The position numbers and the translations under genes are program-made. Under the pieces are notes generated by a model. The model saw only the letters and a list, made by a program, of their open reading frames with translations, was not told where the DNA came from and did not search any database. A stretch of 36,484 bases of DNA from a virus, in IMG/VR virus record IMGVR_UViG_3300030090_002511, positions 1-36,484 of that record; one strand, written 5' to 3'. Positions 6,041 to 8,686 of the stretch are shown here, piece by piece (position 1 is the first letter of the stretch; each line of letters begins with the position of its first letter).

Positions 6041-6129
6041 CGTTTTACTGCTGGCGCTACCGCAGGTTTATCGCGCTTCGTAGGAGGCGCGGTTTCTTTC
6101 GTAGTAGTTACCTTTACTGCTGGTGTCAT
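6037..6129 (-). CDS. 30-residue micro-ORF, basic Pro/Thr/Ala peptide
   Basis: A frame of 30 codons starts at 6129 and is joined by ATGA overlaps to both neighbours (the lipoprotein stop upstream and the adaptor start downstream). The peptide begins MTPAVKVTTTKETAPPTKRD and ends AVAPAVKR. It has no membrane segment. Perfect double ATGA coupling argues that it is translated; it may be a real small protein or serve mainly to carry ribosomes to the adaptor gene. Function unknown. Confidence 0.5.
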   Translation of the reverse strand: MTPAVKVTTTKETAPPTKRDKPAVAPAVKR

Positions 6130-6314
6130 TTTCTCTCCAACTCATACTCAAGATGGTTGATCGTCTTGAGCGCTTCGCGTGTGAAGTCCGGTGCGTGAAA
6201 CGCTGCCCTCGGAAACTGCGGATGTTTTATCAGACGCTGACTGTTTTCCAACTTCGTCGTTGTCGTGCATCCGCTCGCTAGGAAAACTGAGAGCGTCAGC
6301 AATAGCGCTGTCAA
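6126..6314 (-). CDS. Nested o-spanin-like lipoprotein (Rz1-like)
   Basis: The frame carries a hydrophobic segment ending in a lipobox, LSVFLASGC, followed by a 47-residue mature part (CTTTTKLENSQRLIKHPQ onwards), typical of an outer-membrane spanin subunit that helps breach the outer membrane at lysis. It lies out of frame inside the 6148-6438 gene, as Rz1 lies within Rz. An ATG at 6422 would give an overlong 51-residue leader. The TTG at 6314 has AAGGA eight bases upstream and puts the cysteine at residue 16, so I prefer it, although the resulting signal lacks N-terminal lysine or arginine. The stop overlaps the next ORF as ATGA. Confidence 0.6.
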   Translation of the reverse strand: MTALLLTLSVFLASGCTTTTKLENSQRLIKHPQFPRAAFHAPDFTREALKTINHLEYELERK

Positions 6315-6438
6315 CGAGATCGTCCTTCGCTGTACGCCGTGCCGCAGCCGTATGCTCCTTAGCAACTCCGAACAACTTGTCCAGAATTTGCTGAAGAGCA
6401 GGGATGGCTTTGGCAATAGCATACAGGAATTTTAACAT
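6148..6438 (-). CDS. Spanin-partner / lysis-associated small protein
   Basis: 96 residues. I start it at 6438, one base after the stop of the preceding gene, rather than at the longer upstream frame inside that gene. The N-terminus (MLKFLYAIAKAIPALQQILD) is a hydrophobic to amphipathic helix. A charged helical part follows (HTAAARRTAKDDLVDSAIAD) and the tail is hydrophilic and Ser-rich. An out-of-frame lipoprotein nested in its 3' part suggests it is the inner-membrane spanin partner, but the membrane helix is weak and the coiled coil short. A different peripheral membrane role is possible. Confidence 0.55.
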   Translation of the reverse strand: MLKFLYAIAKAIPALQQILDKLFGVAKEHTAAARRTAKDDLVDSAIADALSFPSERMHDNDEVGKQSASDKTSAVSEGSVSRTGLHTRSAQDDQPS

Positions 6439-6439
6439 T

Positions 6440-7216
6440 TTATCTATAACCAGCAGAGCCAGTTCTGTTACGCATCGTAACAGTACCGCCGCCACGTAAC
6501 GTAGCTTGACGACGCTGTGTGCGACGACCTCTTGCTGCACCCGCACGGCGCTTCGCCTGACCTACACGCTTGCGACCTCCTGCTACACGTTCTTTACGCT
6601 CATCACGCTTCTTACGTTTAGCTGTGCGATCTGCTGCTTTGTTAGTAGCAGTCTGCTTTCGCGTAGTGCGTGAACCGGGGCCAGTTGGCTTCTTAGGTGT
6701 TTTACTGCCGGGGCCAGAAGGCTTACGCGGTGTCTGCACACTAGGCTTGACGGTTCGTCCTGCTGCTTTAGCACCGAGGCGGCCTCCTGCTACACCTGAT
6801 GCTGGCGCTAACGCTTTTCTTATAGCAGCCGTGCCTAATCTACCAGCAGTACCAATCGCTCTACCGACAGGGAACGCTCCAGCAACTTTTAAAATGTTAC
6901 CCGGCAATTCACTCAGCGGTTTAAACTCTAAACCACTACGTCCTGCCATCTCTTTCGGTAATGGTGCTGGGCCGCTAGATACTTTCTTCTTAGCAGCAGG
7001 TTTAGTTGCAGGTTTAGCAGCAGCTACTTTCTTCTTCGGCGCAGCTTTAGCTGGTGCAGCTTTCTTCTTCGCACCACCTCGTGTAACTGGGCCTTTAGCT
7101 ATGTTAGCCTTCGCTTGTGCAAGCGTCTTCGCTTTACGAGCCGCCTTACGCTTAGCACCAGCGCGAGACATCTCCATCAAGCGCTGGCCACCTTTTTTAC
7201 GTTTACCGTATGCCAT
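6440..7216 (-). CDS. Very basic histone H1-like Lys/Ala/Arg-rich protein
   Basis: 258 residues dominated by Lys, Arg, Ala, Gly and Pro. The N-terminal third has AKKKAAPAKAAPKKK-type repeats like bacterial histone H1-like proteins. A less charged, Gly/Ala-rich core lies at about residues 90-150 (LPGNILKVAGAFPVGRAIGT). The C-terminal third carries two PRKPSGPGS / PKKPTGPGS repeats and an Arg-rich tail. GGAG lies upstream of the ATG. Such a polycation could condense or coat DNA, be packaged in the virion or bind nucleic acid during lysis. The exact role is unknown. Confidence 0.7.
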   Translation of the reverse strand: MAYGKRKKGGQRLMEMSRAGAKRKAARKAKTLAQAKANIAKGPVTRGGAKKKAAPAKAAPKKKVAAAKPATKPAAKKKVSSGPAPLPKEMAGRSGLEFKPLSELPGNILKVAGAFPVGRAIGTAGRLGTAAIRKALAPASGVAGGRLGAKAAGRTVKPSVQTPRKPSGPGSKTPKKPTGPGSRTTRKQTATNKAADRTAKRKKRDERKERVAGGRKRVGQAKRRAGAARGRRTQRRQATLRGGGTVTMRNRTGSAGYR

Positions 7217-7217
7217 G

Positions 7218-7394
7218 TTATTCTCCGTCTAACTTCTTCTCCACCTTCTTCACGCCATGCCTCACGAAGATGGCAAGCGCAGATGTGATAGCTACGTTAA
7301 TCGCAGCACCTAACTCCAGTTCACCTGTGAGATAACCGCTTATAGCGCCCACCAAACCAGTAACTCCTGCCCAGAATGTTTTACTCTTAATCAT
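7218..7394 (-). CDS. Small two-span membrane protein, holin candidate
   Basis: 58 residues, starting MIKSKTFWAGVTGLVGAISG. Two short hydrophobic segments (about residues 7-22 and 30-46) are joined by a polar turn (TGELELG), and the tail is strongly basic (VRHGVKKVEKK). This size and topology fit a small phage holin, which would form inner-membrane holes to time lysis, but many phages carry similar small membrane proteins that are not holins. It starts by ATGA overlap with the upstream gene and ends one base before the basic protein gene. Confidence 0.6.
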   Translation of the reverse strand: MIKSKTFWAGVTGLVGAISGYLTGELELGAAINVAITSALAIFVRHGVKKVEKKLDGE

Positions 7395-7778: not shown

Positions 7779-7923
7779 TCTTCAAAAGCTGTCTTATCTT
7801 TAAGCCTATGTAGATCAAACTTGCAACAGATATAGCTACCTTCAGTACGAGGTCTATCTCAACCATCCAGTTACCCAAACCAGTAACACTAGCGATTGCA
7901 ACTTTAAGATCATCTAAATTCAT
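7768..7923 (-). CDS. Single-span small membrane protein
   Basis: 51 residues, starting MNLDDLKVAIASVTGLGNWM. One hydrophobic helix at about residues 25-42 (LVLKVAISVASLIYIGL) is followed by a basic tail (KIRQLLKNGS). The start is in ATGA overlap with the lipoprotein gene. Size and location among lysis-type genes make it a second holin or antiholin candidate. Nothing in the sequence decides between these and another membrane role. Confidence 0.55.
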   Translation of the reverse strand: MNLDDLKVAIASVTGLGNWMVEIDLVLKVAISVASLIYIGLKIRQLLKNGS

Positions 7924-8072
7924 TCACTCTTTTCGCCTTGGTACTCTATGTCAAAGAAAGGCGTGTCTACTTCCAAAGTACCCGGCAACGACTTACAGCC
8001 ACTTGCCAGCACGACGATAAGCACCATCGCTCCTATGAAAATTCCTAACGTTATTTTATCAGTCCTGTCCAT
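7920..8072 (-). CDS. Short lipoprotein
   Basis: 50 residues: MDRTDKITLGIFIGAM, then a hydrophobic run ending VVLASGC at residue 26, a good lipobox. Only 25 residues remain after the acylated cysteine. The gene overlaps the MscS-like gene by 14 bases and the next gene by ATGA. It could be a second outer-membrane lysis lipoprotein, or a superinfection-exclusion lipoprotein like those of several phages. The mature part (LEVDTPFFDIEYQGEKSE) is acidic and unrecognised. Confidence 0.6.
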   Translation of the reverse strand: MDRTDKITLGIFIGAMVLIVVLASGCKSLPGTLEVDTPFFDIEYQGEKSE

Positions 8073-8454
8073 CTTTTACCAGCTCCACTTTCATTACACC
8101 ACCTTCATCACCTTTCGGCAAGTAGGCTTCGCCACCGTTGACAGGTAGCCTTTTCTCTACGACAAGAGCCTTTAACTGCTCATTCGGCACGATCATTTTG
8201 GTGTTCCTGTCTGTCATAAAAAATGTAGTAGACGTTAAGCCAAGTCGTATGACCCGCGCTTGCCGTCCACTAATGTAAAGTATCTCATCGTTCTCAAAGT
8301 CGCTGCCCCAATAGATCAGCAAACCTTGAGCGAAGTTGAACAAGATGTCCTTAAACAGCAGCGCACAGAAAGCAGCAATAAGCAACCAGCCATAATGACC
8401 GATTGCTTGTTCTGCTACTTTCTCAAGTGCTGCATGATCTAGGACATTAGTCAT
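8059..8454 (-). CDS. MscS-like minimal mechanosensitive channel-type protein
   Basis: 131 residues. One hydrophobic segment (about residues 23-48, WLLIAAFCALLFKDILFNF) is followed by a beta-rich domain. Its core, DEILYISGRQARVIRLGLTS and then MIVPNEQL, follows the MscS beta-domain pattern: a Gly turn, a V-x-x-I-x-L strand, then the hallmark PN at residues 90-91. Bacterial MscS proteins have three or more membrane helices and a C-terminal vestibule; this has only the pore-helix-plus-beta-domain equivalent. It sits among lysis-type small genes, so it may alter membrane permeability or be a diverged membrane protein with another role. Confidence 0.55.
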   Translation of the reverse strand: MTNVLDHAALEKVAEQAIGHYGWLLIAAFCALLFKDILFNFAQGLLIYWGSDFENDEILYISGRQARVIRLGLTSTTFFMTDRNTKMIVPNEQLKALVVEKRLPVNGGEAYLPKGDEGGVMKVELVKDGQD

Positions 8455-8686
8455 TAACTGCTTTGTCTACCGTGGCTTCTTGAGCTTCTAGTGACTGATT
8501 CAACAAACCCATGAAATGATTTCTCGCTCCAAGCGTCTGTTCTAAACTGAAGTTAATCTGGCTAGCTTTACGCTCAAGATCACTTACATGGTTTATTAGC
8601 GTGACTTGTTCGCTCGTCAAATCTGCTAAGTTGTGTTCTTCCCCGTTAATGATAACGGTTTCCTTTTTTGAGTTTTCTGTGGCCAT
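8447..8686 (-). CDS. Small conserved-type protein, possible DUF6447 relative
   Basis: 79 residues. The N-terminus is KKETVIINGEEHNLADLTSE, followed by a helical segment (VTLINHVSDLERKASQINFS) that could be a short coiled coil. The 'V-x-I-x-G-x-E-x-x-L-x-D-L' start is like a small family common in marine phages (I think DUF6447), whose function is not known. It lies five bases after the fibre gene start-to-stop order and overlaps the MscS-like gene by eight bases. AAGGGA lies upstream of the ATG. Confidence 0.6.
   Translation of the reverse strand: MATENSKKETVIINGEEHNLADLTSEQVTLINHVSDLERKASQINFSLEQTLGARNHFMGLLNQSLEAQEATVDKAVND

Follow-up and report, generated by a model that had tools for sequence, protein, structure and literature searches.

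A minimal MscS-like membrane protein of phages whose gene is linked to that of a small lipoprotein

What would a phage do with a small membrane protein that resembles the core of a mechanosensitive channel? This question is raised by a gene in a virus record of 36,484 bases (here referred to as "the window", meaning the whole stretch of DNA that was analysed), which is classed as linear and is therefore probably a fragment. The encoded protein has 131 amino acids; a short helix at its N-terminus is followed by a single membrane helix that corresponds to TM3 of MscS, then by a beta-domain and a short disordered tail. The gene, its parts and the other features of the window are compiled in Table 1.

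Table 1. Features of the window considered in this study; counts refer to 88 related loci.
Feature	Position	Strand	Remarks
mscS-like gene	8059..8454	(-)	Minimal MscS-like protein, 131 aa; ATG start
TM3-like helix	8305..8394	(-)	Residues 21-50; offset 77 to E. coli MscS; from AF2 model
MscS beta-domain	8146..8304	(-)	Residues 51-103; invariant R64, R67, R70; V89-P90-N91 turn
50-aa lipoprotein	7920..8072	(-)	Lipobox ASGC; 14-nt overlap with mscS-like gene; conserved partner
51-aa protein, one membrane helix	7768..7923	(-)	4-nt overlap with lipoprotein gene; in 61/88 loci
58-aa holin-sized membrane protein	7218..7394	(-)	In 63/88 loci; no named family
79-aa protein, upstream	8447..8686	(-)	8-nt overlap with mscS-like gene; in 26/88 loci; phrog_21153, unknown function
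Candidate Rz-like inner-membrane spanin, 132 aa	6148..6546	(-)	No family match
Lipoprotein, candidate Rz1-like spanin	6126..6422	(-)	Other frame, overlapping the 6148..6546 ORF
Tail-spike-like protein, 1527 aa	8692-13275	(-)	Many AVGxxA-type repeats; S74 chaperone domain
AAA+ protein, 272 aa	30538-31356	(+)	Sigma-54 activator look (GSFTGA loop)

In sequence searches, PF00924 (MS_channel_2nd) was the sole Pfam match of the protein, with 23.9 bits and E 4.6e-5 against Pfam-A (curated cut-off 20.2), and residues 36-94 were aligned with positions 1-58 of the 68 in the profile. When the window alone was searched, the same family gave 25 bits and E 7.1e-7. Alignments to MscS sequences from the PDB extend from residue 26-31 to about residue 93-101 with few gap positions, beginning within the membrane helix and continuing into the beta-domain; the best of them is with plant MSL1 (E 0.017), and 4hw9, the MscS of H. 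pylori, has E 0.1. Both marks of the MscS superfamily, the PF00924 beta-domain and a TM3 running directly into it, are therefore present. PHROGs contain no family for the protein at E 1 or better, and the E. coli MscS sequence has no PHROG over its own beta-domain either, its best match (E 0.0016) covering residues 197-270. Two parts of canonical MscS are absent: the TM1-TM2 sensor paddle, as the single membrane helix has only about 20 residues before it, and the C-terminal alpha/beta cage, as the protein ends at 131 amino acids with a tail that is disordered beyond the last strand. Because of these absences, we filed the protein as a variant of MscS and not as a canonical member. The sensor paddle is also reduced in TcMscS (PMC12334622) and in microsporidian MscS2 (PMC11262690), according to the accessible parts of the two papers.

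The predicted structures are single-chain models of middling confidence, with a pLDDT of 60.8 for the first AF2 model (35 relatives) and of 68.8 overall for the second (66 relatives), in which the means of ten-residue blocks are 73-84 over residues 21-100. The second model has a helix at residues 5-50, followed by strands at 58-61, 64-71, 75-80, 85-90 and 99-102; a short helix precedes the last of these five strands, and most of the final 25 residues are disordered. Foldseek compared the first model with the PDB, and all of the 50 listed matches are of the MscS type, 47 of them by title; the other three (3udc_A, 3t9n_A and 3t9n_D) are titled just "membrane protein" and are presumably an MscS. 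With the second model, rows 1-46 of the 50 listed by VIA-align are of the MscS type, two of them by our own assumption, with Z from 10.0 to 6.5, and the first other fold appears at rank 47 (Z 6.1). The matches include 7n5d_B as the best (Z 10.0, rmsd 6.2, 100 residues aligned), 8jwe_A (Z 9.8, rmsd 2.2, 72 aligned), 4hw9_A (Z 8.2, rmsd 2.9, 86 aligned), 6rld_A (Z 8.0, rmsd 2.8, 86 aligned) and 9bgt_A of TcMscS (Z 7.4, rmsd 2.4, 63 aligned). The tool cautions that Z below 8 can reflect a common arrangement, and we assigned the MscS fold because VIA agrees with the sequence profile.

These results confirm the preliminary description, in which a phage protein with one membrane helix and an MscS-type beta-domain had been noticed, and extend it to a family. 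The PN turn named there is V89-P90-N91, with P kept in 64 and N in 63 of the 66 aligned relatives, and the comparison of a predicted structure with MscS, proposed there as a check, recovered the beta-domain in the AF2 model together with top matches of the MscS type. Could the likeness be accidental, the beta-rich half of a small phage membrane protein being merely MscS-like? The single-sequence scores quoted above (23.9 bits, and E 0.017 for the best PDB sequence) are modest, and the caution of the tool about Z below 8 applies here too. However, sequence profile, Foldseek and VIA concur, the join of TM3 and beta-domain is nearly gapless, and the signal is repeated in 25 of 25 relatives, PF00924 being above its cut-off in each of these records (32-170 kb). 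We consider a chance resemblance very improbable.

Relatives are found in many uncultured marine phages. A single-sequence search of IMG/VR gave 52 relatives among 66 candidate stretches, and profile searches gave relatives in 226 of 248 and then in 358 of 381 candidate stretches, the best 80 being kept from each of the two; contigs with the family are up to 170 kb long. Moreover, BFVD contains two unnamed viral proteins (104 and 129 aa) with matches to the model (E 1.8e-7 and 1e-5). Among bacterial genomes (one per species, 84,980 species), a single relative was found in 51 stretches. It is L120, which lies on a phage-like contig and, like its counterparts in the larger phages, has a PhoH-like gene nearby. 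In 148 genomes of the order to which the L120 MAG belongs, the profile of 66 relatives found the L120 copy and a 295-aa frame (E 3.9e-6), the latter in one genome other than the L120 MAG. No match to three family members was found by tblastn in 50,697 phage records; in the same records the window terminase found 101, all distant phages (< 60% identity), and E. coli MscS gave 17, of which two are records named as Salmonella enterica strains. A search with the sigma-factor-like protein of the 170-kb relative, as a clue to the host, gave no match. The mscS-like gene is under purifying selection: against nine relatives, dN/dS was 0.03-0.11 in the seven comparisons that were computable, one of them with near-saturated dS, and the other two were saturated. 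In 12 loci of the L125 type (L122-L129, L131, L132, L134 and L135), two mscS-like copies, mostly of about 140 and 106 aa, stand head to head on opposite strands, and the short copy stops soon after the beta-domain.

We then tabulated the pore helix of 66 aligned members in register with E. coli MscS, in which N40 corresponds to N117 and G44 to G121. At the kink, the Q112 position (residue 35) is K or R in 66/66, and the G113 position (residue 36) is D, E or N; a K-D pair at the kink is also present in H. pylori MscS (4hw9). The equivalent of L105 is A or G in 63/66 rows, and that of L109 is I, L, F or V in 66/66 (A28 and L32 in the window protein). Judged from this alignment, the double hydrophobic gate L105/L109 of E. 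coli has been cut to one bulky ring throughout the family. A comparable gate is described in TcMscS, which has A60/F64 and for which the authors report a single bulky residue and reduced gate hydrophobicity; this channel without an alpha/beta domain is a mechanosensitive, lipid-plugged heptamer of 478 pS in the accessible part of the paper (PMC12334622). Likewise, MscS2 of Nematocida displodere, which consists of TM3 and beta-domain, is a homo-heptamer in the text available (PMC11262690). The small residues by which MscS TM3 helices pack are replaced in the window protein (Y21, L24, L25 and F29), so the ring may differ. Net charge is on average -3.3 (-7 to -1) ahead of the helix and +0.6 (-1 to +4) behind it in the 66 rows, and the protein would span the inner membrane such that the acidic N-terminus faces outwards and the beta-domain lies inside the cell.

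The beta-domain is conserved far more than the pore helix in these rows, and its RxxRxxR motif (R64, R67 and R70) is invariant in 66/66. The former pattern would suit a phage fragment that enters the MscS rings of the host through TM3 and beta-domain and locks them open or shut, altering ion flux or disarming a membrane-based defence; the protein is, moreover, essentially the core that all MscS share. Against such poisoning of host rings, the invariant arginine motif has no counterpart in E. coli MscS, the TM3 packing residues differ, and the lipoprotein described below is left unexplained. The window protein also has no PADLOC match at E 1 or better, a search that tests families of defence and not of counter-defence. 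We regard this explanation as unlikely. A role in anti-phage defence itself was rejected: PADLOC gave nothing for four window proteins (the mscS-like, lipoprotein, 51-aa and 58-aa products), and a weak BrxB row for one relative (E 0.0071) was disregarded.

The neighbours of the gene provide the second result of this study. The cluster of the 50-aa lipoprotein occurs in 71 of 88 related loci and is the commonest neighbour. We seeded a lipoprotein HMM from eleven members, trimmed it to the part after the lipobox cysteine and ran it on all loci, dropping a locus when the last 100 MscS residues were identical to those of a locus already counted. Of 136 distinct loci, 96 have a related lipoprotein gene directly beside the mscS-like gene, on its downstream side in 88 cases and on its upstream side in 8; because the HMM was built from adjacent cases, the 96 are not an independent count and measure linkage, not a rate of discovery. 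In three further loci the lipoprotein is farther off, and in 37 there is none. The 40 loci without an abutting related lipoprotein, which include the whole L046-type and L125-type clades, are absences at the HMM sensitivity used, except for four with less than 700 bases downstream. Conversely, of the 168 matches of the mature-part HMM, merely four are not beside an mscS-like gene. The two genes overlap by 4 nt in 47 cases and by 14 nt in 21, which suggests translational coupling, and the 170-kb record also has such a pair with a 4-nt overlap. On a tree of 66 rows, for which the tool warns of long branches, the upstream arrangement requires 2 changes, against a shuffled mean of 6.8, and is confined to one part. 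The linkage thus persists across a change of gene order and makes the lipoprotein a concrete candidate partner. We read the two genes as a putative phage module of a minimal MscS pore plus a lipoprotein.

When three lipoproteins and several of the small membrane proteins were compared with Pfam, no family exceeded its cut-off. We also considered the pair as a two-component spanin and rejected this, as such a spanin needs an inner-membrane protein that extends far into the periplasm to an outer-membrane lipoprotein, whereas in the window about 20 residues precede the membrane helix and the mature lipoprotein has about 25 aa. Encoded by overlapping genes, the small lipoprotein and the inner-membrane protein might instead change the envelope or exclude superinfection, jointly blocking the entry of other phages' DNA, and there are known cases of small phage lipoproteins that prevent superinfection. 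However, the gene position in the window phage looks late, which is atypical for exclusion genes, and we hold this reading to be decidedly unlikely.

The surroundings in the window agree with what had been described, a place among lipoproteins and holin-sized proteins, and the 50-, 51- and 58-aa products recur in 71, 61 and 63 of the 88 loci, respectively. The mscS-like gene stands between a tail-spike-like gene and an SU10-type adaptor gene, with virion genes on the same strand, from which we infer late expression. In larger relatives its neighbours are phoH-like genes and others unrelated to lysis. Of 62 distinct loci, mostly of larger phages, 4 have T4-type late promoter words upstream, which is no enrichment over the background of 4.6%. 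Several other observations were made in passing. A dyad, TACACT...AGTGTA, lies upstream in 27 of the 62 loci, for instance in the larger-phage loci L118 and L159, and has few other copies in two large genomes. Beyond its S74 start, the tail-spike-like protein has an acidic stretch of EAVYEDVV-type repeats. The AAA+ protein of the window (Table 1) looks like a sigma-54 activator, and in the related record G005 one ORF has a match to Sigma54_activat (E 1e-47); such an activator encoded by a phage would be unusual.

Is this, then, a lysis gene group, as had been proposed? In its favour are the membrane-rich cluster of the window and, at 6126-6546 (-), an Rz-like frame and a lipoprotein frame that resemble an embedded spanin pair, the lipoprotein frame matching phrog_456 (Rz-like spanin) with an E of just 0.24; against it, no endolysin was found. 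In detail, PF13539 had no match in 26 records, and PF08291, PF01510 and PF00959 had none in 23. The cell-wall hydrolase family PF07486, which was searched after 69 of the 128 ORFs of the 170-kb relative had been scanned with Pfam, is present in 7 of the 23 records; in each of these it follows an mscS-like gene on the same strand at a distance of 11-17 kb. It occurs in 7 of 12 other records and is absent from all eleven of the window lineage (G000, G001, G003-G007 and G009-G012). None of these five families was therefore found in the window or in ten related records of 35-66 kb, all of which may be fragments. In one 46.6-kb relative, no endolysin was found among 43 of 46 ORFs by Pfam and PHROGs (for PHROGs, among the 25 of 55 families listed), or among ten proteins at a laxer threshold; in both this and the 170-kb relative the ORFs were scanned in bulk as an "alignment", so the family tallies are not assignable to single ORFs. 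For the window lineage, the hydrolase may be of an undescribed kind, may reside inside a virion protein or may have been lost with the record ends. As to holins, the 131-aa protein matches no such family, having no PHROG at E 1 or better and PF00924 as its Pfam match. Since no close linkage with an endolysin was found in these records, the lysis reading depends on the setting in the window and on the mechanism; the lysis-type character of the gene group is suggestive, and a lysis role of the gene is plausible.

As the best explanation of the whole, we tentatively favour a unit of pore core and lipoprotein that permeabilises or depolarises the host inner membrane in the manner of a pinholin. 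The gene product would be a phage MscS cut down to TM3, which lines the pore, and the beta-domain on the cytoplasmic side, and its subunits would form a conducting ring, probably a heptamer, with a small pore gated by tension or lipid. In most lineages it would be made together with the lipoprotein of the overlapping gene; the two probably act as one unit and may touch each other, and the lipoprotein, on the periplasmic side, may control the opening of the pore or its location. Given the virion genes and small membrane proteins around the gene, the window phage probably makes the protein late, and its most likely use would be a timed permeabilisation or depolarisation of the inner membrane.

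A contrary use is also conceivable. As an osmotic safety valve, the pore would vent solutes and keep an infected cell with a remodelled envelope from bursting early, so that lysis is delayed and not caused. This is the known job of MscS in the accessible text of PMC11262690, and TcMscS, similar in size and with the same reduced gate, is tension-gated in that of PMC12334622. A valve needs no adjacent endolysin and fits the larger phages. However, a reduced hydrophobic gate (63/66 rows) would by itself make the pore leakier, and the lipoprotein again has no explanation; we think such a valve rather unlikely. Returning to permeabilisation, a bolder form of it, which we regard as doubtful, is a two-part lysis device, in which a one-helix, tension-gated ring of the inner membrane is shut or triggered by its dedicated lipoprotein and, when infection ends, depolarises the cell. 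Such a device would differ from all known classes of holin, and in the L125-type lineage two head-to-head genes would supply divergent subunits of about 140 and 106 aa. Should the pair permeabilise membranes, the phage lysis proteins would gain a new mechanistic kind; if it protects, it would show that phages manage the turgor of their hosts.

Finally, we compared the family with known systems. Bacterial MscS (E. coli 6rld, H. pylori 4hw9) shares the TM3-beta join and the PN turn, and that of H. pylori also the K-D pair at the kink, but these are host housekeeping proteins with TM1, TM2, a C-terminal cage and a two-ring hydrophobic gate. Giant viruses also encode MscS-type channels (Sylvanvirus and Aureococcus anophagefferens virus, rows 3 and 4 in BFVD); they differ in having 651 and 261 aa and in belonging to eukaryotic viruses. 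Pinholin S21-68 is likewise small and encoded by a phage, and it forms heptamers that open narrow pores in the inner membrane according to the accessible text (PMC9636201). However, it works with a SAR endolysin, and none was found for the window phage. To our knowledge, it has no beta-domain.

Two minimal channels of eukaryotes come closer. TcMscS of Trypanosoma cruzi (9bgq, 9bgt and 9bgu) is a miniature without the alpha/beta domain, with A60/F64 in place of A28/L32 and VIA Z of 7.3-7.4; it differs in keeping the TM2 helix and in its 165 aa, and the part of the paper available mentions no lipoprotein partner (PMC12334622). MscS2 of N. displodere shares TM3, beta-domain and, presumably, a heptameric state, but it is a eukaryotic protein of bacterial origin, for which the accessible text mentions no lipoprotein partner and shows no conductance (PMC11262690). 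Among phages, the sole earlier case that we found is gp51 of PANV1 (Paraglaciecola Antarctic GD virus 1, a cultured myovirus of 150.8 kb), for which HHpred gave MscS (6RLD) with a probability of 99.7 and in which a single membrane helix is doubtful; like the window protein it is a phage match to MscS and may be a relative of the family, and it receives one sentence in the accessible text, with no family, partner or function given (PMC9239159). Viral mechanosensitive channels are also touched on in a 2026 paper on estuarine viruses, which names MscL and gives no further detail in the part available (PMC13288924). In the open-licence literature, we found no description of a phage MscS family or of its link with a lipoprotein. 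The linkage is new with respect to this literature, and the mention of gp51 and the minimal eukaryotic analogues were known already. Within the literature searched, no phage family of MscS-type channels would have been described before this one. With about 106-131 aa and one membrane helix, it offers a natural test of the minimum of MscS needed for a mechanosensitive pore. The extreme truncation of MscS has been called unique to microsporidia in the text available (PMC11262690), and the phage family would be its counterpart in the viruses of bacteria.
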